Positions 22,632 through 62,706 of a stretch of 64,000 bases of DNA are shown in pieces. The notes below the pieces were generated by a model. It was not told the origin of the DNA and searched no databases. It worked only from the letters and a program-made list of their open reading frames with translations. The DNA is taken from contig NZ_VFPL01000001.1 of the NCBI RefSeq assembly GCF_006716645.1, positions 4,340,001 through 4,404,000 of the forward strand, written 5' to 3'. This stretch comes from Arcticibacter tournemirensis. Its GTDB lineage: Bacteria > Bacteroidota > Bacteroidia > Sphingobacteriales > Sphingobacteriaceae. The translations under genes and the position numbers were made by a program. How positions within the stretch are numbered: the stretch's first letter is position 1; each line of letters starts with the position of its first letter.

Positions 22632-22784
22632 TTAACGGCATTTCTACTAAGACCGTCATACACGGAAAAGTCCCACGCCAATATCAAATTTTTTGAAAAA
22701 AATTTCAAGGCAGAGGATAGGCAGAATGAAAAGGCAAAGCCATTGCCCGGAAGGCAAAAGATTTAAGCAAACATTTAAAAATCA

Positions 22785-22868
22785 ATACTTAGAACTTACA
22801 ACCTGGAACTTACAACTTAATACCTTCAACTTAGAACTTACAACCTGCAACTCACAACCTGCAACATA
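22785..22868 (-). repeat. Heptamer array at the 3' end of the PUL1 sigma gene (12 units)
   Basis: Twelve consecutive 7-bp units in perfect register, on the plus strand mainly GAACTTA, CAACCTG and CAACTCA. Read in the sense of the sigma gene they are TAAGTTC, CAGGTTG and TGAGTTG. The sigma gene's last codons and its TGA stop (22854-22852) lie inside the array. Confidence 0.85.
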
Positions 22869-23421
22869 ATGCTAAAGATAAAAGGCATATCAGCATAAAG
22901 GACTCACGCAGTAGCGCGATACTCCTGCCTAATTGGTTTTGAACGGTTTTACGTGAGACATTTAACCGTTCTGCGATTTCGTCTGTAGGAAGATCCTGGT
23001 GAAAGCGCATTTGAAAAATAACCTGTTGCGAAGATGTCAGGGTGCCGAGAAGTGCTTCATAAGCTCTGAGAAACTCTTTGTGAAGTACCACTGCGTCGGC
23101 ATTGTCTTTCGACATTTCAAACTGAAGCAAAAGATCGGGAATGGAAGTATATTTGCCTTCCCTTTCCATCCATTTGTACACGTTATTACGTACAGCGGTA
23201 AAGAGGTAGGCAGGTAGGTTGTCAATTACAAGCTCTTTTCTCCTCGACCACAACTGCAAAAAAATATCCTGGGTGATATCCTTTGCATAACCGGGATCGT
23301 TAAGTCTTTTAAATGCAGCGGCGTAAACCTTCTCCCAATACTTTTCATATAACGCATCAAAAGCTTCGGAACTGTCTTCCTGCATCCTTAACAATAAAAA
23401 CTTATCAGTTTCCTTATGCAT
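22852..23421 (-). CDS. ECF RNA polymerase sigma factor (PUL1)
   Basis: A 189-residue sigma-70 ECF protein with region 2 (FDALYEKYWEKVYAAAFKRL, YAKDITQDIFLQLWSRR) and region 4 (LTSSQQVIFQMRFHQDLPTDEIAERLNVSRKTVQNQLG). It heads PUL1 and should be held by the FecR protein encoded 220 bases downstream. The last residues (CCRL) and the stop codon are encoded by the heptamer array, so the original C-terminus may have been altered by repeat growth; the conserved regions end well before this. Confidence 0.94.
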   Translation of the reverse strand: MHKETDKFLLLRMQEDSSEAFDALYEKYWEKVYAAAFKRLNDPGYAKDITQDIFLQLWSRRKELVIDNLPAYLFTAVRNNVYKWMEREGKYTSIPDLLLQFEMSKDNADAVVLHKEFLRAYEALLGTLTSSQQVIFQMRFHQDLPTDEIAERLNVSRKTVQNQLGRSIALLRESFMLICLLSLALCCRL

Positions 23422-34311: not shown

Positions 34312-35517
34312 TCATTGCAGCATAGAAACCCTCCTTCCTTCTATTTTAAATTTCAAACCACTTGTCTTCTCCATCATGTCAAGTACCTGAGAGAGTTTAA
34401 CATTCCGCGGGATAATGCCGTTAAATCTCTTCTCGGGCATACCTTTCGTATCTACCTCTATATCATACCACCTCTCAAGCTCATTCATAATGCTTCTGAG
34501 GTCGCTGTCGCTGAACTGAAACATACCGTTTTTCCAGGCAATGGCTTCCTCTGTATCGACTTCATTTACAATAATCTCTCGCTGTACCGAAGACAATTCT
34601 GATTGCTGGCCGGGCTTAAGCAACTTTGAATCTTTAGGAGATTGTTTACTGCCTGCAGTAACACGTACTTTCCCTTCAAGAAGAGTAGTCTTTATAGAAG
34701 CTTCATCGTTATAAGCACTAATATTAAAGTGTGTGCCCAATACTTCAACTATTTGCCCGCCGCTTCTCACCACAAATGGCACTCTTTCACCTTTTTGCTT
34801 TCCCCTTTCTGCTTTCACCTTATATGCCACTTCGAAATAGGCCTCTCCTTTCAGCTCTACCAGTCGCTCGTCTTTATCAAAGGAAACCGGAAACTTCAGG
34901 GAGGATGAAGCGTTTAACCATACCTCCGTTCCGTCAGGCAGGGTAAGCCGATAGCTTCCTCCACGTGGAACAGTAATGACATTATAAGCCATGGATGCCG
35001 CACTATTTGAATCTCCCGCTTTTGCGGTCCGGTATACTATTTTTCCGTTTCCTGTTTTATTGATGGCCATATTTCCCTGAGTGGCCAGGCGGCCATTTTC
35101 CGATTCATCAAGCATAATCGATGATCCGTCAGCTAAGGTCAGCACAGCTTTATTTCCTCCGGGATTAACATCGTTCTTATACTGCACTTCAGTCTTTTCC
35201 GCAAGCATAGCGCCCTTCCGATCCTGCTTTATAATATACAGCAGGCCTGCAGAAACAATTAACAACGCAACGGCCGCGGCAACTTTAACATAAGCAAAAG
35301 TGAAAGATCTTACAGGCTTTTCTTCCTGAGCTTTAATGGCTTCATCGATTTTAGCGCGGATCTCCTCCCCAATACTTTCCCCCTCTGCCAGAGTTTCCCA
35401 TACCTGTTCGTCTTCCTGAAAATGATTGTAGTAGGAATTAAACAGTACCACTTCCTCTTCAGTCGCTACACCCTTACTTATTTTATCTGCTATCTGCAGG
35501 AACGCTTTCTTGTCCAT
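34312..35517 (-). CDS. FecR-family anti-sigma factor (PUL2)
   Basis: A 401-residue protein with a sigma-binding N-terminus, one membrane segment (VKVAAAVALLIVSAGLLYII), the FecR domain (VPRGGSYRLTLPDGTEVWLNASSSL, VEVLGTHFNISAY, LLEGKVRV) and a C-terminal part ending KIEGRRVSMLQ. It has the same architecture as the PUL1 FecR. The 169-base gap to SusC holds a GC-rich stem (CCCCGTCT/AGATGGGG, 34244-34264), which on the plus strand is followed by TTTTT. Confidence 0.95.
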   Translation of the reverse strand: MDKKAFLQIADKISKGVATEEEVVLFNSYYNHFQEDEQVWETLAEGESIGEEIRAKIDEAIKAQEEKPVRSFTFAYVKVAAAVALLIVSAGLLYIIKQDRKGAMLAEKTEVQYKNDVNPGGNKAVLTLADGSSIMLDESENGRLATQGNMAINKTGNGKIVYRTAKAGDSNSAASMAYNVITVPRGGSYRLTLPDGTEVWLNASSSLKFPVSFDKDERLVELKGEAYFEVAYKVKAERGKQKGERVPFVVRSGGQIVEVLGTHFNISAYNDEASIKTTLLEGKVRVTAGSKQSPKDSKLLKPGQQSELSSVQREIIVNEVDTEEAIAWKNGMFQFSDSDLRSIMNELERWYDIEVDTKGMPEKRFNGIIPRNVKLSQVLDMMEKTSGLKFKIEGRRVSMLQ

Positions 35518-36426: not shown

Positions 36427-36503
36427 AATGAAAATCGTAAAAAACGTAGCTTACTTAATAGATTTACAATGCCGGTAAAGCAGCGGCAAGCCAATGCAAA
36501 GCT

Positions 36504-36608
36504 TAACTCTTAACTCTCAACCTATAACACACAACCTGCAACTCACAACCTGCAACTCACAACCTGCAACTCACAACCTGCAACTCACAACTTACAACTC
36601 ACAACATC
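36504..36608 (-). repeat. Heptamer array at the purL stop codon (15 units)
   Basis: Fifteen 7-bp units in unbroken register; on the plus strand CAACCTG and CAACTCA alternate four times, flanked by diverged units. In purL sense they read GATGTTG, TGAGTTG, TAAGTTG, CAGGTTG and so on. The first sense unit contains part of the purL TGA stop (36609-36607). Confidence 0.9.
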
Positions 36609-39600
36609 AATGTCCTTCCAGCCATACTCTGGCGTTTACGAAAGCTTCAAACCACGGCGACACCTCATCCTTACGTCCTGCAGGGTAATTAGCCCACTGC
36701 CACTGAAGAAGCGAACGTTCTATGTGCGGCATTGTCACGAGGTGTCTTCCGGTCCTGTCGCAAAGGATTCCTGTATTATAGCCCGATCCGTTCGGATTAG
36801 CCGGATAACCTTCATATCCATACTTGGCAACAATCTGATATTTGTCTTCTGTATAAGGGAGCTCAAACTTGCCTTCTCCGTGTGAGATCCATACACCGAG
36901 AGTTGATCCGGCGAGGCTCGACAGCATCACCGATTTATTCTCCTGAATAGTCAGCGAGGTAAAGCCCGATTCGTGTTTGCCGCTATCATTATGCAGCATC
37001 TTTGGTTTATTATCATGATCATCGTTGATCAGTCCCAGCTCCACAAACAGCTGGCAGCCATTACAAATGCCAATGGAAAGAGTATCCTCACGTTTGAAGA
37101 AATTCTCCAGTGCGATCCTTGCTTTCTCATTATATAGGAAAGCTCCTGCCCATCCTTTAGCTGAACCGAGCACATCGGAATTGGAAAAGCCTCCAACTGC
37201 GCCTATAAAACGAATATCTTCCAAAGTTTCCCTTCCGGAGATCAAATCCGTCATGTGAACATCTTTCACATCAAAGCCGGCGAGATACATGGCATTGGCC
37301 AGCTCTCTTTCAGAGTTGCTGCCCTTCTCGCGAAGGATCGCCGCCTTAATCCTTGGCTTTGCAGGATCCAAAACCGGTTTCTTCCCGTTGAAATCCGGCG
37401 GGAACTTATATTTCAGAACCTGGAACTTATAGTTATCAAAACGCTCCTTTGCCTTTACCGGTCCGCTTTGCTTCTGATCAAGAAGATACGAGGTTTTGAA
37501 CCACACATCGCGTAACTGGTCAATGTCAAAATTCCATTCACCTGTACCGTTCTTCACTTTCAGCAAGGACTCGGAACTAACCTCCCCGATCTTATAGTAG
37601 GTAATCCCCTTTGATTCGAGAATGGATTCTACTGCCTGATCAGCCTGGAATACCAATGCAATATTTTCTGAAAAAAGAGTCTCAATGATGTCCTGATCTC
37701 CAAGAGGCGACAAGTCGATACTGGCTCCCAGACCACGATCAGCAAAGCAAAGCTCCAGCAAGGTAGTGATCAATCCACCGCTTCCGATGTCATGCCCTGC
37801 CTGAATATGGCCGGCTTTGATTAAACCTTGTACGGTGTCGAACACATTTTTAAATTCAGCTGCGTTCCTGATATCGGGAGTTTCCGAGCCAATTTTATTC
37901 AGGATTTGAGCGAAAGAAGATCCGCCAAGCTTAAAGCGATCGCCAGAAAGACTAATATAATAAATAGAACCGCCATCTTTGCGAAGGACAGGCTCAACGG
38001 TAGCTGTTATATCGTCGCAATGACCAGCAGCAGAAATAATTACAGTTCCTGGTGCGATCACCTCCTTGTCTTTGTACTTCTGCTTCATCGACAGGGAGTC
38101 TTTACCAGTAGGAATGTTGATACCCAGTTCGATTGCAAAGTCGGAACAAGCCTTCACCGCTTTATACAAGCGGGCGTCCTCGCCCTCATTTTTGCATGCC
38201 CACATCCAGTTAGCTGAGAGCGATACACTCGTCAGGCCGTCTTTCAAAGGAGCCCAGACTATATTCGAAAGAGCTTCAGCGATAGCATTCCGGCTACCTG
38301 CCGCCGGATCAATAAGAGCAGAAAGGGGAGCATGACCTATAGAGGTCGCAATCCCATCCTTTCCCTGGAAATCCAGCGCCATTACCCCGCAGTTGTTTAA
38401 AGGCAGCTGAAGGGGACCAGCACATTGTTGTGTAGCAACCCGGCCGCCAACGCAACGGTCGACTTTATTCACAAGCCAGTCTTTACAAGCTACCGCTTCC
38501 AGTTGCAGTACCTGCTCAAGGTAAGTTTCAAGCTTACTCACATCGTATACAACCGGCTCATATTTTGTTTCGACGGTTTTATCCTGCATCACCGTTTTCG
38601 GGGAACTTCCAAACATATCCTCCATCTTCAGGTCCATCGGCTTAGCTCCGCTCACCTGAGATTCAAAACTGAAACGATGGTCGCCTGTTACCGTACCCAC
38701 AGTATACATTGGAGCACGCTCCCTGTCAGCGATCTTCTGCAGGGTGTCCAGGTTCTCCTCTCCGATCACCAGGCCCATACGTTCCTGCGATTCGTTACCG
38801 ATAATTTCCTTGGCAGAAAGCGTTGGATCTCCTACCGGCAACTTATCAAGATCTATTTTACCGCCGGTTTCTTCTACCAGCTCCGAAAGGCAATTCAGAT
38901 GGCCACCTGCACCGTGGTCATGTATGGATACGATCGCGTTGTTGTCGCTTTCAACCATGCCCCGAACGGCGTTGGCAACCCGTTTTTGCATCTCCGGATT
39001 CGAGCGCTGCACCGCATTGAGCTCAATTCCCGATTCGAAGGCGCCGGTATCAGCCGAAGATACAGCCGCCCCGCCCATACCGATACGGTAATTATCACCA
39101 CCGAGGACTACGATCTTGTCGTTTTGCTTCGGTGTATATTTTTTTGCCTGGTCGGCTTTCCCATACCCTATCCCTCCTGCCTGCATGATCACCTTATCGT
39201 ACCCGAGGATCCTCGAGTTTTCCTCATGTTCAAACGTTAGGACGGAACCTGCGATCAGCGGCTGGCCAAACTTATTTCCGAAATCGGACGCACCGTTCGA
39301 TGCTTTAATCAGGATATCAACCGGTGTTTGGTACAACCATTCCCTTTCCTGTACTGCGTTTTCCCAGGGCCTGTCTTTTGTAAGACGTGAAAGAGCAGTC
39401 ATATATACTGCCGTTCCCGCGAGAGGAACAGCGCCTTGTCCGCCTGCCAGACGGTCCCTGATCTCCCCTCCGGAGCCGGTTGCCGCACCGTTAAAGGGTT
39501 CTACTGTTGTAGGGAAATTATGTGTTTCGGCTTTCACCGAAATAACCGATTCAAAATCCTTTATTTCATAATATGCAGGAACATCAGGCCTTTGGGGAGC

Positions 39601-40266
39601 AAACTGCTGCACCACCGGTCCTTTCAGGAAGGCTACATTATCTTTATAAGCAGAAACGATCCCGTTGGGATGAGCTTCAGACGTTTTACGGATAAGTTTA
39701 AATAACGATACCGGCTGTTCCTGTCCGTCTATAACAAATGTTCCGTTGAAGATTTTATGACGGCAGTGTTCTGAATTTACCTGAGAGAAGCCGAATACTT
39801 CGGAGTCGGTGAGCTTACGCCCCAGTTTGTTAGCAAGACCATTCAGATATTCAATTTCCTCTTCGCTCAGCGAAAGCCCTTCCTGCTGATTGTAAGCAGC
39901 GATATCGTCAATTTCAAGAATTGGCTCAGGCTTGATATGGATGGTAAAAATATCCTGGTCCAGTTCCTTATACTTCTGCGAAAGCATCGGGTCGAAATCC
40001 TTAAAATCAGCTGTTACTCTTGTATACTCCTCTATCCTCAATATTCCATGGATATCCATATTTTGAGTGATCTCAACAGCGTTCGTACTCCAGGGAGTAA
40101 CCATTGCTGCACGGGGTCCTACAAAATAGTCCTGGATTTTTGAGTCCTGTACTAACTGAGCGCTACCAAAAAGCCAGCTTAATTTAGAAATATCTGAAGA
40201 ATCAAGGGTTTCTGGTTTTTGTACTGCGTAGACTGTATTCGCCTTATTGGAAAAAAAGTATATCAT
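36607..40266 (-). CDS. purL: Phosphoribosylformylglycinamidine synthase, single-chain
   Basis: A 1219-residue enzyme of the large type that fuses the PurL synthetase and PurQ glutaminase parts. It converts FGAR, glutamine and ATP to FGAM in purine synthesis. N-terminal PurS-like and linker regions lead to ETHNFPTTVEPFNGAATGSGGEIRD and a second AIRS-type half (GKDSLSMKQKY). The class-I glutaminase has its Cys in ICNGCQLFVELGL (C1071) with His/Glu in SHGEGKFELP and a late PHIERS. Both parts look intact. It is an isolated housekeeping gene between PUL2 and the GH31 gene. Confidence 0.97.
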   Translation of the reverse strand: MIYFFSNKANTVYAVQKPETLDSSDISKLSWLFGSAQLVQDSKIQDYFVGPRAAMVTPWSTNAVEITQNMDIHGILRIEEYTRVTADFKDFDPMLSQKYKELDQDIFTIHIKPEPILEIDDIAAYNQQEGLSLSEEEIEYLNGLANKLGRKLTDSEVFGFSQVNSEHCRHKIFNGTFVIDGQEQPVSLFKLIRKTSEAHPNGIVSAYKDNVAFLKGPVVQQFAPQRPDVPAYYEIKDFESVISVKAETHNFPTTVEPFNGAATGSGGEIRDRLAGGQGAVPLAGTAVYMTALSRLTKDRPWENAVQEREWLYQTPVDILIKASNGASDFGNKFGQPLIAGSVLTFEHEENSRILGYDKVIMQAGGIGYGKADQAKKYTPKQNDKIVVLGGDNYRIGMGGAAVSSADTGAFESGIELNAVQRSNPEMQKRVANAVRGMVESDNNAIVSIHDHGAGGHLNCLSELVEETGGKIDLDKLPVGDPTLSAKEIIGNESQERMGLVIGEENLDTLQKIADRERAPMYTVGTVTGDHRFSFESQVSGAKPMDLKMEDMFGSSPKTVMQDKTVETKYEPVVYDVSKLETYLEQVLQLEAVACKDWLVNKVDRCVGGRVATQQCAGPLQLPLNNCGVMALDFQGKDGIATSIGHAPLSALIDPAAGSRNAIAEALSNIVWAPLKDGLTSVSLSANWMWACKNEGEDARLYKAVKACSDFAIELGINIPTGKDSLSMKQKYKDKEVIAPGTVIISAAGHCDDITATVEPVLRKDGGSIYYISLSGDRFKLGGSSFAQILNKIGSETPDIRNAAEFKNVFDTVQGLIKAGHIQAGHDIGSGGLITTLLELCFADRGLGASIDLSPLGDQDIIETLFSENIALVFQADQAVESILESKGITYYKIGEVSSESLLKVKNGTGEWNFDIDQLRDVWFKTSYLLDQKQSGPVKAKERFDNYKFQVLKYKFPPDFNGKKPVLDPAKPRIKAAILREKGSNSERELANAMYLAGFDVKDVHMTDLISGRETLEDIRFIGAVGGFSNSDVLGSAKGWAGAFLYNEKARIALENFFKREDTLSIGICNGCQLFVELGLINDDHDNKPKMLHNDSGKHESGFTSLTIQENKSVMLSSLAGSTLGVWISHGEGKFELPYTEDKYQIVAKYGYEGYPANPNGSGYNTGILCDRTGRHLVTMPHIERSLLQWQWANYPAGRKDEVSPWFEAFVNARVWLEGH

Positions 40267-51719: not shown

Positions 51720-53108
51720 ATGAATTACGACTTAATAGTTATCGGAAGCGGCCCCGGCGGCTATGTTGCTGCGATTCGCGCTTCACAGCTGGGCTTAAAG
51801 ACAGCGATCATTGAACGCGAATCTTTAGGTGGTATTTGCCTTAACTGGGGATGTATTCCAACAAAAGCGTTATTGAAAAGCGCGCAGGTTTTTGAATATA
51901 TCAAACATGCTTCTGATTACGGTATCCAGGTTCAGGGTGGCGAGGCCGACTTCGGCGCTGTCATCAAACGCAGCCGTGGTGTGGCTGAAGGCATGAGTAA
52001 GGGTATCCAGTTCCTGATGAAGAAGAACAAGATCGATGTGATCATGGGTGTTGCCAAAATCAAAAAAGGCGGCAAAGTGGAGGTAAAAGCTGCAGATGGT
52101 TCTGCTAAGGAATACACTGCAAAGCATACGATCCTGGCTACCGGCGCGCGCTCACGCGAATTGCCTAACCTGAAGCAGGATGGCAAGAAGATCATTGGCT
52201 ACCGTCAGGCGATGAACCTTCCTGAACAGCCAAAGAGCATGATCGTAGTTGGATCAGGAGCTATCGGTATTGAATTTGCTTATTTCTATAGCGCATTAGG
52301 CACTAAAGTTACTGTGGTTGAATTTATGGACCGCATTGTTCCGGTAGAAGATGAGGAAATCTCTAAACAACTGGAAAGAAGTCTTAAGAAAGCCGGCATT
52401 AATATTCTTACCAGCTCTACTGTTGAAGCAGTGGATACATCAGGTGAGGGTTGTAAGGCACAGGTAAAATCGGCTAAGGGAACTGAAACCTTAGAGGCTG
52501 AGATTGTTCTTTCCGCAGTCGGCATCACTCCTAATATTGAGAATATCGGTCTTGAGGAGGTGGGTGTTAAGACAGATCGCGGACGAGTGATCGTTGACGA
52601 CTTCTATAAAACCAATATTGAAGGTGTATACGCAATCGGCGATATTGTAAAGGGACAGGCACTTGCGCACGTTGCATCTGCTGAAGGTATTATCTGCGTT
52701 GAAAAGATCGCAGGTCACCATCCGGAACCTTTAGATTATAATAACATCCCGGGTTGTACTTATTGTACTCCTGAAATTGCTTCTGTTGGTTATACTGAAA
52801 AAGGAGCTAAAGAAGCAGGATACGAAATTAAAGTGGGTAAATTCCCCTTCTCTGCATCGGGTAAAGCGAGCGCTGCCGGCACGAAAGATGGCTTTGTAAA
52901 GGTGATCTTTGATGCAAAATATGGTGAGTTCCTCGGAGCTCACATGATTGGCGCCGGTGTTACTGAAATGATTGCCGAAGTTGTAGTTGCACGTAAACTT
53001 GAAACAACCGGCATGGATATCATTAAGTCTGTTCACCCCCACCCTACCATGAGCGAAGCGGTTATGGAAGCTGCTGCTGATGCGTACGGCGAGGTGATAC
53101 ACCTATAA
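51720..53108 (+). CDS. lpdA: Dihydrolipoyl dehydrogenase (E3)
   Basis: This 462-residue flavoprotein reoxidises dihydrolipoamide of the 2-oxo-acid dehydrogenase or glycine-cleavage complexes with NAD. It shows the FAD Rossmann motif VIGSGPGGYVAA (7-18), the redox disulfide GGICLNWGCIPTK (C40/C45), the NAD-binding VVGSGAIGIEFAYFY, a second FAD motif VYAIGDI and the dimer-interface catalytic HPHPTMSEA near the C-terminus. Length is normal. A terminator follows the gene. No E1/E2 genes are nearby. Confidence 0.97.
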   Translation: MNYDLIVIGSGPGGYVAAIRASQLGLKTAIIERESLGGICLNWGCIPTKALLKSAQVFEYIKHASDYGIQVQGGEADFGAVIKRSRGVAEGMSKGIQFLMKKNKIDVIMGVAKIKKGGKVEVKAADGSAKEYTAKHTILATGARSRELPNLKQDGKKIIGYRQAMNLPEQPKSMIVVGSGAIGIEFAYFYSALGTKVTVVEFMDRIVPVEDEEISKQLERSLKKAGINILTSSTVEAVDTSGEGCKAQVKSAKGTETLEAEIVLSAVGITPNIENIGLEEVGVKTDRGRVIVDDFYKTNIEGVYAIGDIVKGQALAHVASAEGIICVEKIAGHHPEPLDYNNIPGCTYCTPEIASVGYTEKGAKEAGYEIKVGKFPFSASGKASAAGTKDGFVKVIFDAKYGEFLGAHMIGAGVTEMIAEVVVARKLETTGMDIIKSVHPHPTMSEAVMEAAADAYGEVIHL

Positions 53109-53109
53109 T

Positions 53110-53144
53110 TGAGTTGCAGGTTGAGAGTTGTGGGTTGAAGGATA
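53110..53144 (+). repeat. Heptamer array after lpdA (about 5 units)
   Basis: Starting one base after the TAA stop, TGAGTTG, CAGGTTG, AGAGTTG and TGGGTTG follow in register, then a diverged unit. Same sense orientation as the other arrays. Confidence 0.7.
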
Positions 53145-53175
53145 TGTATAGCGCATTAAAAGCGGGATAAATTAC

Positions 53176-53214
53176 AAAAGGGCAATAGATAGATTGTATT
53201 TATTGCTCTTTTTT
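53176..53214 (+). terminator. lpdA terminator
   Basis: AAAAGGGCAATAGAT and ATTTATTGCTCTTTT pair with two imperfect positions around a short loop, followed by a T-run. It lies about 70 bases after the lpdA stop. Confidence 0.75.
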
Positions 53215-53261
53215 GTACATTATTTATCGTCTGTCCTAACCTTCTTTGCTGAAGGTTCTCC

Positions 53262-53296
53262 CTACTCACAACACGCAACTTACAACATACAACACA
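53262..53296 (-). repeat. Heptamer array directly before the MBL start codon (5 units, opposite orientation)
   Basis: CTACTCA, CAACACG, CAACTTA, CAACATA and CAACACA run in register up to one base before the ATG at 53298. The orientation is reversed relative to the lpdA array, so the mRNA leader of the MBL gene is a CAA-rich, probably unstructured stretch. Confidence 0.75.
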
Positions 53297-53297
53297 T

Positions 53298-54146
53298 ATG
53301 AACCTCTACTCCATCAACACTGGTCTTTTTAAATTGGACGGCGGCGCCATGTTCGGGGTAGTTCCTAAAACCATATGGAGCAAGACGAATCCGGCGGACG
53401 AAAACAATCTGTGCACTCTTGCTATGCGTTGCCTTCTTGTGGAGGAAGGGAATCGCCTTATCCTCATTGATACGGGCATTGGCGACAAGCAAAGCGAAAA
53501 GTTCTTCAGGTATTATTATCTGCATGGAGAGGATACACTGGAAAAATCGTTAAAGCAACATGGATTTCATCGCGATGATATTACTGATGTGTTCCTCACG
53601 CATCTTCACCTGGACCATGTGGGCGGCGCCGTGGTAAGGGATGGGCAAGATCTTGTTCCTGCTTTTAAAAATGCGGTTTATTGGACTAGTAAACGACATT
53701 GGGACTGGGCAGCAAATCCAAATGAGCGGGAAAAGGCTTCTTTTCTTGCCGAAAACATCAATCCTCTTCAGGAAAGTGGTAAACTGAACTTCATAAACGA
53801 AAGCAACCCGACTTCCCTTACACCTGATTTTGGTATTCGTTTCACTTACGGGCACACGGATTCGATGATGCTGCCAACTTTGCAATATAAAGACCGTACA
53901 GTTGTCTTTGTGGCAGATTTACTGCCAACTACCGGGCACATTCCCGTTCCTTATGTTGCCGGTTATGATGTTTTCCCATTGCAGTCTATGGCAGAAAAAA
54001 GAGCGTTTCTGGATGAGGCACAGCAGAATAACTATATTTTATTCTTTGAGCACGACGCGGTTCATGAATGCTGCACGCTGCAACAAACCGAAAAGGGCAT
54101 AAGACTTGCTGATACTTTTTCGCTGAGAGGGATAGCTGGGAGGTGA
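53298..54146 (+). CDS. MBL-fold metallohydrolase
   Basis: This 282-residue protein has no signal peptide. The metal-binding signature THLHLDHVGG is clear, with further ligands at YGHTDSMMLPT, FVADLLPT and EHDAV near the C-terminus. It resembles lactonase/quorum-quenching-like cytosolic MBL proteins (AttM/AiiA or N-acyl-type), but substrate specificity within this fold cannot be read from sequence. The gene starts within a CAA-rich repeat leader and ends at another heptamer array. Confidence 0.92.
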   Translation: MNLYSINTGLFKLDGGAMFGVVPKTIWSKTNPADENNLCTLAMRCLLVEEGNRLILIDTGIGDKQSEKFFRYYYLHGEDTLEKSLKQHGFHRDDITDVFLTHLHLDHVGGAVVRDGQDLVPAFKNAVYWTSKRHWDWAANPNEREKASFLAENINPLQESGKLNFINESNPTSLTPDFGIRFTYGHTDSMMLPTLQYKDRTVVFVADLLPTTGHIPVPYVAGYDVFPLQSMAEKRAFLDEAQQNNYILFFEHDAVHECCTLQQTEKGIRLADTFSLRGIAGR

Positions 54147-54187
54147 GGGTTGAAAGTGGAGAGTTGAAGGTTGAAGGTTTTGAGTTG
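54146..54187 (+). repeat. Heptamer array at the MBL stop codon (6 units)
   Basis: AGGGTTG, AAAGTGG, AGAGTTG, AAGGTTG, AAGGTTT and TGAGTTG run in register from the last base of the TGA stop. Further right, CTCTAAAATAA occurs twice near 54290-54316, just before the GroES-like gene. Confidence 0.75.
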
Positions 54188-55934: not shown

Positions 55935-56228
55935 GTGAAGAAGTACCTTCAATTCTATAGGCTGTACTATGTCTGGTTTGCCCTGGCAAACTTCATCGGC
56001 TTCTGGATTTTCTTTTTTGAACCCGTTCCCCTGCCTATTCTGTTTATTATTAAGGCGTCTTTCTTCCCTGCGATTTATCAGCTTGCCAAACCATCCGTAA
56101 AAAAATACTTTTGTTACTTCCAGAATTTAGGTTATCCTGCCAATAAGCTTTTTATAAGTGTCGCGTGTTTTGACTTTGCGGCTTTTATTCTAATTATTTT
56201 AATCATTAATTCTTTTAAAGATGCTTGA
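55935..56228 (+). CDS. Small membrane protein paired with ABC ATPase, function unknown
   Basis: A 97-residue protein with a GTG start (MKKYLQFYRLYYVWFALANF). It has three hydrophobic segments, near residues 14-30, 33-48 and 76-92. Its last codons overlap the start of the ABC ATPase gene by eight bases (GATGCTTGA), so the two are translationally coupled. It may be a minimal membrane partner for that ATPase, though it is far smaller than a normal ABC permease. No family recognised. Confidence 0.75.
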   Translation: MKKYLQFYRLYYVWFALANFIGFWIFFFEPVPLPILFIIKASFFPAIYQLAKPSVKKYFCYFQNLGYPANKLFISVACFDFAAFILIILIINSFKDA

Positions 56229-56871
56229 AATAGATAGTGTATCGCTTTGCTTTGGCAGAAAACAAGTATTGTCGGGCTGTTATATTTGCTGCAAACCCGG
56301 CGAGATCGTCGGTCTTCTGGGAAGGAATGGCTGCGGCAAATCAAGCTTGCTGAAGATCATCTTTGGTACCCTAAAGGCTGATTTCATGCATCTGAAGGTC
56401 GGCAGCAAGATTACGAAAAAAACTTTTCCGGGAAAAGATGTGGCGTATCTTCCTCAGCATAACTTCATTCCACCTTTCCTGACCGTTAGAAAGGTACTCG
56501 AAGATTGTGACCCGTCTGTGGCTACAGAAGAGGCTGTTGTGAGCCTTAACGAACTAAAAGACAGCCGTATAAACAGCTTATCCGGAGGCGAACGGCGATT
56601 TTTGGAATGCCTGTGGCTGCTGTCACGCCCGGCAACGTACCTCTTGCTGGATGAACCTTTTTCCGAAATTGCTCCTTTCCAGATTGAAATCCTTCAGGAT
56701 ATCATCCGGACAAAAGGGAAAACCAAAGGTATTATCCTTACAGATCATTTTTATCTCCCTTTAATGGAAGTGAGCACCAGGATTGTTCTGATGCACAATA
56801 ACGCCATCTATAATATTCGCGACGAGTCTGACCTTATTCTGTATAATTATATCCCGGACTTTAGCAGTTGA
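56221..56871 (+). CDS. ABC transporter ATP-binding protein (small, stand-alone)
   Basis: A 216-residue ATPase with Walker A GRNGCGKSSLL, Q-loop YLPQHNFIPPFLT, signature SLSGGERRFLE, Walker B YLLLDEPFSEI and switch His in ILTDH. All catalytic motifs are intact. The protein is compact and the only neighbour is the 97-residue membrane protein, so the transported substrate and the permease are unknown. Its TGA stop lies inside the first unit of the longest heptamer array of the window. Confidence 0.92.
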   Translation: MLEIDSVSLCFGRKQVLSGCYICCKPGEIVGLLGRNGCGKSSLLKIIFGTLKADFMHLKVGSKITKKTFPGKDVAYLPQHNFIPPFLTVRKVLEDCDPSVATEEAVVSLNELKDSRINSLSGGERRFLECLWLLSRPATYLLLDEPFSEIAPFQIEILQDIIRTKGKTKGIILTDHFYLPLMEVSTRIVLMHNNAIYNIRDESDLILYNYIPDFSS

Positions 56872-57007
56872 CGGGAGAGAATGGACAGTTGACAATGGAC
56901 AATTGACAGTTGACAATCGACAATTGATAATGGACAGGGGACAATGGACAATTGATAAGGGACAATGGACAAGGGACGATTGATAATGGACAAGGGGCTG
57001 TTGACAA
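56868..57007 (+). repeat. Heptamer array at the ABC ATPase stop codon (20 units)
   Basis: Twenty 7-bp units in unbroken register, mostly TTGACAA, TGGACAA, TTGATAA and GGGACAA. The first unit, TTGACGG, contains the TGA stop of the ABC gene. The unit differs from the GTTG-type arrays but aligns with them when read as ACAGTTG/ACAATGG. Confidence 0.92.
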
Positions 57008-57044
57008 ACAAGTGATTTAGTGTGCGGCTAAACCACTTGTTTGT
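57004..57044. terminator. Bidirectional terminator between ABC and aldo/keto reductase genes
   Basis: ACAAACAAGTGATTTAG and CTAAACCACTTGTTTGT form a 17-bp stem with one mismatch and a seven-base loop. It lies between converging genes and its left arm overlaps the last heptamer unit. Confidence 0.75.
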
Positions 57045-57063
57045 TATGGCTGACTAATATCAA

Positions 57064-59091: not shown

Positions 59092-62000
59092 ATGCAATTA
59101 ACGAAGCTGGAGATTAAGGGCTTTAAGAGCTTTGGCGACAAAATCACTATAAATTTTAATGAAGGGATTACGGCTATTGCCGGACCTAATGGCTGCGGAA
59201 AATCTAATGTGGTAGATGCTATCCGCTGGGTGCTTGGCGAACAGAGCACGAAGGCGCTGCGTTCCGAAAAAATGGAGAACATCATTTTTAACGGCACCAA
59301 AACGCGCAAGCCATCACAGCTTGCAGAGGTTTCGTTAACCTTCGACAATACAAAGAACATCCTCCCTACCGAGTTCGCGCATGTTACCATTACCCGTAAG
59401 TTATACCGCAGCGGAGAAAGCGAGTACCGGCTGAATGATGTTCATTGCCGGCTTAAAGACATTACAGATCTCTTTCTCGACACTGGTATCGGATCTGACT
59501 CCTACTCTATTATTGAGTTGAAAATGATCGACGAGATCATTGCGAACAAAGAAGGTTCAAGGCGAGCTTTATTTGAGGAGTCGTCGGGAATTTCGAAATA
59601 TAAGCTTCGGAAAAAGCAGACGTTTAATAAGCTGAAAGATACGGAGGCTGACCTGAGCCGGGTTGAAGACCTGCTGTTTGAAATAGAGAAGAATCTCAAA
59701 ACACTCGAAAACCAGGCTAAAAAAGCAGAACGGTATTACAAGCTTAAAGAACAGTACCAGTCCCTCAGCGTGACACTTGCTTCGTTCCGGATTACGGGCT
59801 TCAGGGAATCATTGGAGAAGCTTGATGAGCAGGAGGAGCGTCACAACGTCGAAAAAAGCGGTATCATTGCAGAAATCGATAAGCTAGAAGCGGCCCTTCA
59901 GCAATTTAAGACCGAAAATATCACAAAAGAGAAAAACTTGTCGGCCCAGCAGAAGGCGGCTAATGAGTTTACTTCAAAAATACGTGCTTACGAGAGCGAA
60001 AAAAAGATTAAGAATGAACAGCTGCGTTTTTTGCAGGATAAGGAAAAACGTCTGAGTGAGGAACTCGACAAGGATAAAAATCAGCTGAATCATGTTATCT
60101 ACAACATTAAGCGGCTGAATGAAGAACATCTTCAGGAGAGCGAAAAGCTAAACGCCATCAGCTCCGGCCTTTCAGAAAAGAAAGCCGAGCTGGATGAAAT
60201 GCGCTTGCAGCAACAATCCTCCAAAACGGCTCTTGACAGTTTTGTAAAGCAAAACAATGAACTGCAGAACGAGGTCTATAAGGTCGAAAAGGACCTGACG
60301 GTCTTGAATATTCAGAAGGATGCTCTTTTGCAGGAAAGCAGGCGCAATATCGCAGATACAGAATCGAAAGAAACGGAGCTGAACGAGTTCAATAAAGCGA
60401 TATCCGAACTCGACAACAAGCTGAAGATCAAAAAGGAAGAGCTTGAGGCAGCTCAGATGTACGAGGATGATCTGGAACTGCAGATCAAGTCGACCGACGA
60501 ACAGCTAAACAGACATAAGGAACAACTGTCGGCAGAAAGCCGAAAGCTTGACGCCAAACAGAATGAATATAACCTGACAAAATCGCTTGTAGACAACCTT
60601 GAAGGATTCCCTGAATCAATACGGTTTCTGAAGAAGAACACGGGATGGGCAAAACAGGCTCCTCTCCTGTCGGATGTTCTTTTCTGTAAGGAAGAGTACC
60701 GTATCGCGATTGAGAACTACCTGGAGCCTGTGATGAACCACTATGTGGTGGAGACTCATGCGGAGGCCGTTCAGGCCATACGGCTGCTCAGCGACTCATC
60801 CAAGGGCAGGGCAAACTTCTTTATTCTTGCAGCCCTGGACGCAGGGCCTGAGCCTTCGGCGCTTGATATGGTGGGAAGCAACCTTATTCCTGCCCTCAGC
60901 ATCATAGATGTTGAAGAAAAATACAGCAGGCTTTGCCGTCAGCTCCTCAGAAATGTATTTATTCTGACTACCGGCGATGAGGAAGAGCTAGGCAGCATTC
61001 TTCCTGATAAAAACGTCGTTATCCTCAGTGGCAGCGGTAAGTTTATTAAAAGCCGTATTACCATGGCTGGCGGCTCTGTGGGACTCTTTGAAGGCAAGCG
61101 TATCGGCCGGGCGAAGAATCTTGAGAACCTTGCCAAAGAGATCAGGGCTCTTGAAAATAAGATCAGTGTGCTCAAAACTTCAATCGAGCAAGAGGTTCAG
61201 AAGTCGGGCACCTTGCGATCGAGTTCAAAAAAGGAAGAAATACGGTTATTACAGCAGGATACAAACCGGCTGAATAACGAACTTATATCCCTGCAAACGC
61301 GACAGGAGCAGTATACTACATTTATTCAGAACAGCCAAAACCGTAAGCAGGATATTGAACAAAAGATCCGGTCGCTGAACGAAGAGCTTGAGAAAGCCGG
61401 TCCTGAGCTAAACCGGCTAAAAGATAAAAAGCAGGAAATGAGCAACATGCTTGCTGAAAAACAGCAGGCTTATCACGAACTTGCGGAGCTGGTAACAGAA
61501 CGGGCAACAGCCTGGAACCAGGAGAACATCCGCTTCCATCAGCAGCAAAATAAAGTTTCAGGAATAGAGAAAGACCTGGACTACCGCGACAGCCAGCAGC
61601 AGGGACTCGATACCAGAATCGCCACCAACGGCACAGAACTCGAAAAAACCCGGTCGGAGATCAACGAAACACTGCAGCATGTGGATCATTCGGATGAAGA
61701 TCTGATAGCCATGTATGTTCAGAAAGAAGAGTTTGAAAAGGGCGTACGTGAAGCTGAACAGGAGTATTATCAATCGAGAGGTGTGATAACAGAAACGGAA
61801 AATGCTGTTTCTGCATTGCGGCGTAAAAAGGAACAGTCGGAACTGATCGGAAACGAGCTGAAGGAGAAAAAGACGAGTCTGCGGCTGGAACTGAACGCGT
61901 TGAAAGAAAGACTGTCGATAGAGTTTTCGATTGATATTGCCGACCTTCTTGACGCGGAGATCCCTGAAGGAGAGAATGAAACCGACCTTAAGGAAAGAAC

Positions 62001-62646
62001 TGATAAGCTTAAACGCCAGCTGGATGACTTCGGCGCTATCAACTCGATGGCTATGGAGGCTTATAAGGAAATGAACGAGCGCTATTCCTTTATTCAGGGG
62101 CAGAAAAAGGACCTGCTGGAGGCAAAGGCTTCGCTGATGGAGACAATCAGGGAGATAGACGACAGCGCGAAGAGCAAATTCATGGATGCCTTTTTGCAGG
62201 TCCGGGATCACTTCATCCGCGTGTTCCGTTCGCTCTTCAACGAAGAGGACAGCTGTGACCTGATACTCTCTGATCCCGAGAATCCTCTCGAGTCGGACAT
62301 CGATATCATTGCACGCCCCAAGGGGAAACGCCCTCTGTCTATAAATCAGCTCTCGGGAGGAGAAAAGACATTAACGGCAACAGCCCTGCTCTTTTCGCTA
62401 TACCTGCTAAAACCGGCTCCTTTCTGTATTTTCGATGAGGTAGATGCACCGCTGGATGATACGAACATCGACAAGTTCAATAATATTATCCGTAAATTCT
62501 CCTCTGAATCGCAGTTTATAGTGGTGTCGCATAACAAACGTACTATAGCGAGTACAGACATCGTTTATGGTGTAACTATGGTTGAGCAGGGTATCTCGCG
62601 GGTTGTGGCGGTGGATTTGAGGGAATATCCGGCAGAGGTGAGTTGA
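59092..62646 (+). CDS. smc: Chromosome segregation ATPase SMC
   Basis: An 1184-residue SMC protein with full family length. Walker A is GPNGCGKSN (31-39). Long coiled coils flank a hinge near residues 500-660 (PESIRFLKKNTGWAKQAPLLSD and GGSVGLFEGKRIGR). The C-terminal head carries the signature LSGGEKTLTATALLFSLY and Walker B FCIFDEVDAPLDDTN. It acts with ScpA/ScpB as the condensin that organises and separates chromosomes; those partners are not in the window. The stop codon lies within a repeat array. Confidence 0.97.
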   Translation: MQLTKLEIKGFKSFGDKITINFNEGITAIAGPNGCGKSNVVDAIRWVLGEQSTKALRSEKMENIIFNGTKTRKPSQLAEVSLTFDNTKNILPTEFAHVTITRKLYRSGESEYRLNDVHCRLKDITDLFLDTGIGSDSYSIIELKMIDEIIANKEGSRRALFEESSGISKYKLRKKQTFNKLKDTEADLSRVEDLLFEIEKNLKTLENQAKKAERYYKLKEQYQSLSVTLASFRITGFRESLEKLDEQEERHNVEKSGIIAEIDKLEAALQQFKTENITKEKNLSAQQKAANEFTSKIRAYESEKKIKNEQLRFLQDKEKRLSEELDKDKNQLNHVIYNIKRLNEEHLQESEKLNAISSGLSEKKAELDEMRLQQQSSKTALDSFVKQNNELQNEVYKVEKDLTVLNIQKDALLQESRRNIADTESKETELNEFNKAISELDNKLKIKKEELEAAQMYEDDLELQIKSTDEQLNRHKEQLSAESRKLDAKQNEYNLTKSLVDNLEGFPESIRFLKKNTGWAKQAPLLSDVLFCKEEYRIAIENYLEPVMNHYVVETHAEAVQAIRLLSDSSKGRANFFILAALDAGPEPSALDMVGSNLIPALSIIDVEEKYSRLCRQLLRNVFILTTGDEEELGSILPDKNVVILSGSGKFIKSRITMAGGSVGLFEGKRIGRAKNLENLAKEIRALENKISVLKTSIEQEVQKSGTLRSSSKKEEIRLLQQDTNRLNNELISLQTRQEQYTTFIQNSQNRKQDIEQKIRSLNEELEKAGPELNRLKDKKQEMSNMLAEKQQAYHELAELVTERATAWNQENIRFHQQQNKVSGIEKDLDYRDSQQQGLDTRIATNGTELEKTRSEINETLQHVDHSDEDLIAMYVQKEEFEKGVREAEQEYYQSRGVITETENAVSALRRKKEQSELIGNELKEKKTSLRLELNALKERLSIEFSIDIADLLDAEIPEGENETDLKERTDKLKRQLDDFGAINSMAMEAYKEMNERYSFIQGQKKDLLEAKASLMETIREIDDSAKSKFMDAFLQVRDHFIRVFRSLFNEEDSCDLILSDPENPLESDIDIIARPKGKRPLSINQLSGGEKTLTATALLFSLYLLKPAPFCIFDEVDAPLDDTNIDKFNNIIRKFSSESQFIVVSHNKRTIASTDIVYGVTMVEQGISRVVAVDLREYPAEVS

Positions 62647-62706
62647 GAGTTTAAAGTGGAGTTGAGAGTTTAAAGTGAAGAGTGGAAAGTTATAGGTTAT
62701 AAGTCT
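62639..62706 (+). repeat. Heptamer array at the smc stop codon, with a 19-bp perfect duplication
   Basis: TGAGTTG, AGAGTTT and AAAGTGG units run from seven bases before the stop. The 19-mer at 62640-62658 is repeated exactly at 62659-62677, and the TGA stop (62644-62646) lies in the first copy. The array continues as AGAGTGG, AAAGTTA, TAGGTTA and TAAGTCT. Confidence 0.8.

Follow-up and report, generated by a model that had tools for sequence, protein, structure and literature searches.

Degenerate tandem arrays of a 7-nt unit occur across the genome of Arcticibacter tournemirensis, and they read away from whichever gene edge they abut; the same-sense rule that is apparent at stop codons is part of this wider rule. 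The window (the whole stretch of 64,000 nucleotides analysed, G000:C1:4340001-4404000) holds six arrays that an earlier note had placed at the ends of genes, and all six are real, having been recovered at about the same places and in the sense of the gene (Table 1). The explanation that we favour, albeit with slightly less than even confidence, is that these are slippage-grown heptamer satellites bounded by coding edges, in which sense units would re-supply stop codons and inverted arms would be made by template switching. It takes up a suggestion of the earlier note, slippage-grown 3' ends, which our results support.

Arrays in the window

Pfam agrees with the gene names used in the earlier note (sigma-70 regions 2 and 4, PurL domains, MBL fold, ABC ATPase and SMC) and gives a pyridine nucleotide-disulphide oxidoreductase (lpdA-like) for lpdA. 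With a criterion of at least 28 matches in a 42-bp sliding frame, the window yields 98 positions at lag 7 and 216 at lag 14, and none at lags 2-6 and 8-13. Period 14 is dominant in the purL array because GTTGTGA and GTTGCAG alternate there. The lpdA array falls under the threshold of the spacer scan described below; its inverted partner, the antisense array ahead of the MBL-fold gene, had been overlooked.

Table 1. Heptamer arrays and other repeats, in window positions unless the contig G000:C1 is named
Feature	Coordinates	Strand	Remarks
ECF-like sigma factor gene array	22770..22865	-	Gene 22852-23421 (-); last 14 nt of ORF covered, stop included
purL array	36502..36605	-	Gene 36607-40266 (-); one base separates stop from array
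lpdA array	about 53110..53144	+	Gene 51720-53108; left arm of inverted pair; TRF and by eye
Antisense heptamer array	53258..53294	-	Ends 3 bp ahead of MBL-fold gene (53298-54146); right arm of inverted pair
MBL-fold gene array	54134..54179	+	Stop TGA 54144-54146 inside array
ABC ATPase gene array	56868/56870..56996	+	Gene 56221-56871; stop TGA inside array; AATTGAC/AATGGAC dialect
Hairpin after ABC array	57006..57045	+	AACAAGTG.TTTAG...CTAAACCACTTGTT
smc array	62640..62704	+	Gene 59092-62646; stop TGA inside array
11-bp family copy L038	G000:C1 365106-365274		
11-bp family copy L046	G000:C1 584108-584298		
11-bp family copy L048	G000:C1 690576-690747		
11-bp family copy L051	G000:C1 753417-753588		
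11-bp family copy L077	G000:C1 1650514-1650689		
11-bp family copy L009	G000:C1 4197421-4197591		
11-bp family copy L021	G000:C1 4491894-4492050		

Period 7 is the dominant tandem period

The scan covered 2.864 of the 5.656 Mb of the parent genome (51%, window included; 5,655,817 bp in two contigs), with genes called by a custom script without curated annotation and with thresholds of our own choosing. Merging of runs at lags 7 and 14 gave 148 arrays in these 2.864 Mb, against 5, 5, 9, 10, 5 and 5 arrays for the control pairs 5/10, 8/16, 6/12, 9/18, 10/20 and 13/26, so the strict period of 7 described for the six arrays is borne out. Self-match runs with a score of at least 14 tell the same story, with 156, 121, 88 and 46 runs at lags 7, 14, 21 and 28 against 1-10 at each remaining lag from 4 to 23, except lags 11 (22 runs) and 22 (15 runs); the enrichment of the multiples 14, 21 and 28 counts for slippage. 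The pair 11/22 gave 23 arrays in the same sample, an excess that comes from a second dispersed intergenic family, about 170 bp long, with 11-bp repeats in inverted arms (CTGAC.../...GTCAG) and a conserved centre, CATGTCAGACTCTCGTCAGACTTTAGTC. Seven copies of this 11-bp family were aligned in the scanned half of the genome.

All but six of the 148 arrays are intergenic (142; five lie in called genes and one at a block end), and with a period-7 excess that is mostly intergenic they belong to the general class of heptameric simple sequence repeats. One of the five in called genes is an internal heptamer-like repeat of a FecR-like gene (window 34784-34821; CTTTCAC, period 7/14). Array density is uneven along the genome: there are 13 and 15 arrays per 100 kb at G000:C1 1320001-1420000 and 1815001-1915000 and none in three other blocks, with an index of dispersion of 2.7 over 29 blocks.

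A scan of 1524 spacers used a lower threshold than the 148-array set, at which some chance matches are expected, and found lag 7 in 144-178 spacers and control lags in 5-30; about 11% of the scanned spacers (170/1524) are array-bearing. Chance matches at control lags, together with analyst-set thresholds and script-called genes, are what could be said for the pattern being accidental or a detection artefact, a reading to which we attach next to no weight given the large excess over every control lag and over shifted positions, and given that 12 of 12 well-oriented arrays in loci of other species obey the rule described below.

The unit itself is degenerate, about RGTWDNN, and several dialects exist in the genome. 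Aligned in phase it reads A/G, G, T, T/A, G/A/T, A/T/C, A/G, with at most 0.96 bits per position. The commonest unit per array is AGTATCA in 32 of 207 arrays, followed by AGTTGAA (15), AGTTGTA (11), AGTTAAA (9), AGTTATG (8) and many rarer ones, AATTGAC/AATGGAC of the ABC array being a minor dialect. The shared AGTTG/GGTTG-like core noticed in the window is supported. That a core, RGTW, recurs across loci counts against our favoured explanation, since it is unexpected from independent slippage of random sequence.

Arrays read away from gene edges

Array direction was set from the arrays' own 4-mers, blind to genes, and the eight best of 31 starts reached an identical solution. On this basis 101 of 132 arrays point away from whichever gene edge is closer (p = 8e-10; 16 of the 148 were dropped, five in called genes, one at a block end and ten near-equidistant). 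Within 20 bp of a gene, the outward orientation is found in 59 of 70 arrays at 3' ends and 24 of 30 at 5' ends.

The two boundaries of an array behave very differently. Among 233 oriented arrays with a margin of at least 10, the 5' boundary (on the G-richer strand) overlaps a gene edge or lies no more than 10 bp from it in 124, and the 3' boundary in 10. Random placement, under a null of our own design, gives 45 +/- 5.7 edge-bound boundaries with a maximum of 64 in 2000; the scan extended 20 bp inside genes, which truncates distances at -20. Stop-facing arrays have their 5' end within 10 bp of the stop or overlapping it in 101 of 147 cases, against 5 of 120 for the 3' end, and the median distance to stops is 2 bp; for start-facing arrays the 5' boundary is at the edge in 23 of 86 and the 3' boundary in 5 of 113. 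When ORFs of at least 200 aa serve as the sole landmarks, 55 array 5' boundaries fall at -25 to +10 of a stop codon, as opposed to 11 3' boundaries, and 300 shifts of the arrays give an average of 1.5 for the former and never more than 6.

The genome-wide lag-7 scan that the earlier note proposed therefore upholds its observation, placement at stops being far above that of shifted positions, and both the start of arrays at stop codons and the sense bias there are supported. What does not survive is a rule tied to stops and to one sense, because arrays are also found next to start codons, there in antisense, and in inverted pairs. "Always in the same sense" fails even in the window, where the antisense array precedes the MBL-fold gene, and genome-wide 11 of the 70 arrays within 20 bp of 3' gene ends are opposite. 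Replication strand was rejected as a cause of orientation, with 70 arrays leading and 78 lagging (replichores inferred from GC skew).

Within arrays, units of the 5' half are more alike than those of the 3' half (lag-7 identity 0.695 versus 0.651; 118 arrays, p = 0.003), as expected if the 5' side is younger. The difference is present after trimming (81 arrays, p = 0.013) and is not significant in the 60 arrays at stops alone (p = 0.09). The gene-side (5') half is also G-richer (0.300 versus 0.258, p = 1e-4). Longer arrays lie nearer to the stop (rho -0.35, 147 arrays), a trend compatible with nucleation at stops as well as with creeping towards them, given that a long array takes up more of its spacer in any case. 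Array identity shows no relation to this distance (p = 0.13). In all four gene arrangements, spacers with arrays exceed those without in length; once array length is subtracted, they are the shorter ones in three of four.

These features fit a process in which replication slippage or unequal duplication would lengthen the arrays and keep renewing them, one or a few 7-bp units at a time, while selection on coding sequence would confine them to spacers. Growth would be polar, the end lying 5' on the G-richer strand being the putative active front, which may come to rest at gene edges and sometimes a few codons inside. No dedicated function would be necessary, and a mild effect on transcript 3' ends is possible. 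The modest size of the 5'/3' difference, its lack of significance at stops alone and the missing relation between array identity and distance from the stop speak against this explanation.

Stop codons and reading frames

The whole stop codon lies inside the array in 37 arrays, together with a median of 9 coding nt. In the 50 genes whose stop is overlapped by an array, TGA (21) and TAG (15) accompany 14 TAA, while stops in general are TAA in 1194, TAG in 458 and TGA in 455 of 2107 genes (chi-square p = 8e-5). The enclosed stops and the shift in usage to TGA and TAG together indicate that arrays extend into the last codons of a gene and then furnish its stop. Compared with their counterparts in the metagenome-assembled genome L001, the MBL protein is three residues longer and SMC one longer, both ending inside the array (by eye). 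For annotation, this means that arrays shift stop codons by a few residues. Arrays do supply stop codons; stop supply as their function is a proposal only.

The earlier note went further and saw the arrays as all-frame translation stops in which three units would always suffice. A tendency of this kind exists, as all three frames are closed within 28 nt in 64 of 207 arrays read in sense against 18 of 207 in antisense and 109 of 1300 ordinary 28-nt spacer windows (which include array-bearing spacers), but there is no rule of three units. Under the slippage explanation, the sense orientation may survive at stops since TGA, TAA and TAG in several frames would at once replace a lost stop. The antisense orientation may survive before starts by virtue of few start-like codons: start-like triplets number 0.073 per nt on the G strand as against 0.032 on its complement and 0.042 in spacers. 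Arrays that start just past an intact stop (0 to +9) are also biased, with about 50 in sense and 3 in antisense, although a re-supplied stop gives selection no hold on orientation there. This counts against the explanation: re-supply of stops by itself is insufficient, and polarity would have to come from growth itself, for which the evidence is indirect.

Inverted pairs and their origin

Where a spacer holds two arrays (n = 54), they converge (-> <-) in 40 cases, diverge (<- ->) in 3 and run in parallel in the rest (3 >> and 8 <<). In 14 of the 40 inverted pairs the arms are one continuous run split by orientation, and in the other 26 an unrelated stretch, sometimes a terminator, lies between them. 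The arms of one spacer resemble each other: ranked against arms of other spacers, the same-spacer arm has a mean rank of 0.82 and falls in the top tenth in 20 of 40 pairs; native arms pair better than swapped ones, with lower duplex energy in 33 of 40; and the 3-mer cosine of two arms in one spacer is 0.63 (27 pairs) versus 0.45. Regional sharing of dialects was not found, as the cosine is about equal for neighbouring spacers within 10 kb (0.448) and for distant ones (0.452). Template switching is reported to yield reverse-complement repeats near hairpins (PMC8794818). We suggest that the inverted partner may arise when replication switches template from one side of the spacer to the other, in many cases at a terminator hairpin, with the dialect copied in the process.

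Array-bearing spacers with a single array are the majority (105/170), which again counts against our favoured explanation. A hidden inverted partner with a score of at least 14 was detected for 7 of the 77 single arrays that had enough sequence (swapped about 2%, direct 0), and the overall comparison fell short of significance both against direct (p = 0.07) and against swapped (p = 0.10). Placement at the edge is therefore independent of pairing.

Convergent pairs with one dialect per junction are also what would be predicted if both 3' ends at a spacer break had G-richer heptamers added to them, as at a telomere, and were then rejoined into -> <- junctions, the excess of convergent over divergent pairs (40 versus 3) being as expected. 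Such extension predicts younger units on the 3' side, the opposite of what is seen, and it sits poorly with the unrelated stretch between the arms and with the preponderance of single edge-bound arrays. Ku, which all six genomes in the genus possess, is a point in its favour, but it does not separate array-rich from array-free congeners. We judge this origin highly improbable.

The dispersed inverted pairs with like arms could instead stem from a REP- or MITE-like hairpin element that moves into spacers, each array being one of its arms. Against this, no 12-mer is common to any two of 25 loops (0/300 pairs), there is no constant palindromic core and unit sequences vary by site. The transposase evidence, which cuts both ways, is given in the next section; overall we regard a mobile element as improbable.

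Pairing of the arms also bears on the idea that the arrays act in transcripts, where a G/U-rich 3' UTR or the stem of an inverted pair might protect or process mRNA ends or bind an RNA-binding protein, and an A/C-rich antisense array before a start might keep the leader unstructured. The position in the mRNA is consistent, with the G strand in the 3' UTR and the C strand in the 5' leader; the arms of the lpdA-MBL spacer pair around a terminator-like hairpin, this spacer (RNA fold of 53100-53300, z = -4.76) and the ABC spacer (z = -4.12) fold better than shuffles, and the genome has four matches to RRM proteins. We still consider a role in transcripts unlikely. Only about 11% of spacers carry arrays, the same genes in congeners come with few arrays or none, RRM count is weakly related to array count across 81 genomes, and a search of the window against Rfam gave no match. 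A role in termination finds no support: intrinsic terminators are equally common with and without arrays (15/58 versus 39/122, 6/33 versus 42/277 and 2/40 versus 26/184; no p < 0.18), so that arrays neither replace nor need them.

Distribution among relatives

The nearest named relatives of the ABC protein are in the Sphingobacteriales MAG L001 (77%) and then in Arcticibacter pallidicorallinus L002 (63%); L002 and the congener G003 agree in their lpdA and MBL identities as well as in the lpdA-MBL spacer, which makes Arcticibacter the probable genus of these genomes. Among 35 loci from relatives (229 kb) all 12 well-oriented arrays point away from the nearer edge; of 16 stretches, a run of N, one in an ORF and two weakly oriented (one against and one for the rule) were dropped. 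The 3' side of smc carries arrays both here and in L001, and their dialects differ, which is turnover of units at one site; L001 also carries an inverted array there. No array follows the MBL and ABC genes in L001, and no clear array was found in the lpdA spacers of L002 and seven loci of relatives. The lpdA-MBL spacer is 189 bp here, 83-93 bp in three array-free copies (two seemingly from one genome) and 99, 139, 191 and 414 bp in other relatives, and the MBL-g124 spacer is 172 bp with an array here versus about 187 bp without one in L001. Orthologous spacer lengths thus fit either insertion or replacement of spacer sequence, an ambiguity that is a further point against slippage.

Array load is very uneven among congeners. 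Four units of RGTTGNN match 123 times here and 826 times in congener G002, and not at all in G001, G003, G004 and G005; a wider pattern gives 387 matches here, 1081 in G002, 1 in G001, 36 in G004 and none in G003 and G005. The wider pattern matches at least once in 65 of 81 genomes of the family, counts that are rough since they are overlapping matches of a degenerate pattern (reversed control 94 versus 387 here) and since in G008, G064 and G075 reversed-control matches exceed pattern matches. The gene-family correlations that follow use these rough counts.

None of four tested gene families explains array load. Y1 (RAYT) transposase (PF01797) is the candidate that a mobile element would favour, and it is found in 19 of 31 array-rich versus 1 of 25 array-poor genomes among the 81 of the family (rho 0.41), yet none of the genus's six genomes, not even the array-rich ones, has a match. 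Genome size correlates with array count as well (rho 0.42), and gene-family correlations are therefore confounded. Ku (PF02735; rho 0.34) occurs in the genus in array-rich and array-free genomes alike. RRM (PF00076) gives rho 0.21 (p = 0.07) and reverse transcriptase (PF00078) rho 0.15, each over 81 genomes, the latter with 0 matches in G002, the most array-rich. In the scanned genome itself there are four reverse transcriptase matches (G000:C1 1508330, 3296407, 3427854 and 4944935) with identical scores (5.5e-46) and an open frame of 454 aa, which are probably copies of one group II intron-like element. A genus that has array-rich species (our own and G002) and array-free ones (G003 and G005) with syntenic spacers offers a direct route to the cause.

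Comparison with known heptamer repeats

The earlier note knew of no named repeat family that fits. This stands for the unit, which is unmatched, but the same geometry has been published for heptamers with other units. As described by Rehm et al. 2015 (PMC4692102), intergenic G-quadruplex (G4) heptamers, GGGAATC or GGGGA(C/T)T, with a preference for four units, occur in Xanthomonas and Nostoc with the G strand in sense within 50 bp past stops (overlaps included) and in antisense before starts; there are convergent opposite-strand pairs, 70 in Xcc and 75 in Xac, sites are common to relatives while length and sequence vary, and no function is assigned there. Our arrays share with these the 7-nt unit, the intergenic location, the strand rule (59/70 and 24/30), the convergent pairs (40/54) and the variability of length and sequence at sites common to relatives. 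They differ from the G4 heptamers in being degenerate and A/T-rich, with several dialects in one genome, and in a much sharper position (median 2 bp at stops). Runs of at least two copies of GGGAATC or GGGGA(C/T)T number 0 in 2.864 Mb, and G4 capacity is rare: of 207 arrays, 3 have a 3-tetrad motif and 13 a 2-tetrad motif. With the same placement and strand rule and almost no G4 capacity, G4 formation cannot be the cause of the rule in this genome.

A second comparison is with the TAACTGA direct repeats of MacGregor 2015 (PMC4679880), which are intergenic and patchy in Beggiatoaceae, Cyanobacteria and a few Bacteroidetes. In the Maribeggiatoa genome they lie mostly just upstream of starts, the other strand (AGTTATC) pointing away from the gene; indels in 7-nt steps are described in Cyanothece, other heptamers are mixed in, and longer mixed heptamer arrays occur in some Bacteroidetes and Cyanobacteria. 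The 7-nt unit, the intergenic and patchy occurrence and the outward direction are shared. The main site here differs, being the stop codon rather than the start (101 arrays at stops versus 23 at starts within 10 bp), and the unit is not fixed; runs of at least two TAACTGA number 0 in 2.864 Mb. The heptanucleotide elements of Geobacter metallireducens, tandem GGACCGG (four copies) and MTYCTGA (five copies), are likewise dispersed, but they are read as regulator sites (PMC2700814), also lie inside genes and have a fixed copy number, unlike our arrays. In the open-licence literature, no degenerate heptamers of Bacteroidota with this unit or stop-codon rule were found beyond PMC4679880 and PMC4692102.

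REP and MITE elements are similar in being intergenic inverted repeats; the arrays differ in having no constant core, and the genus has no REP-kind transposase. The short tandemly repeated repetitive (STRR) heptamers of heterocystous cyanobacteria, which range from degenerate to fixed and occupy many loci, are alike by description.

We file the arrays as a variant of heptameric repeats which, by unit, is a member of neither the G4 nor the TAACTGA family. What this genome adds is sharp boundaries at stop codons, dialects that are degenerate, a likeness of arms that holds inside a spacer and not from one spacer to the next, perhaps an age gradient, strong differences among congeners and an instance in which the published G4 explanation is untenable. 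Heptamer arrays are reported to be over-represented among bacterial repeats, with the preference for 7 unexplained (PMC4692102, PMC4679880), the G-quadruplex being so far the only explanation linked to placement. We raise, as a speculation in which we have little confidence, that Bacteroidota, Cyanobacteria, Xanthomonas and Beggiatoaceae might have in common one unrecognised polar process, acting in 7-nt steps and depending neither on G4 nor on a fixed unit, by which heptamers are added at coding edges with the G-richer strand pointing outward. If so, the shared placement would reflect a polymerase or end-processing enzyme that is present or active in some species of a genus, and the arrays would be the mark of one enzyme rather than many unrelated repeat families with separate functions.
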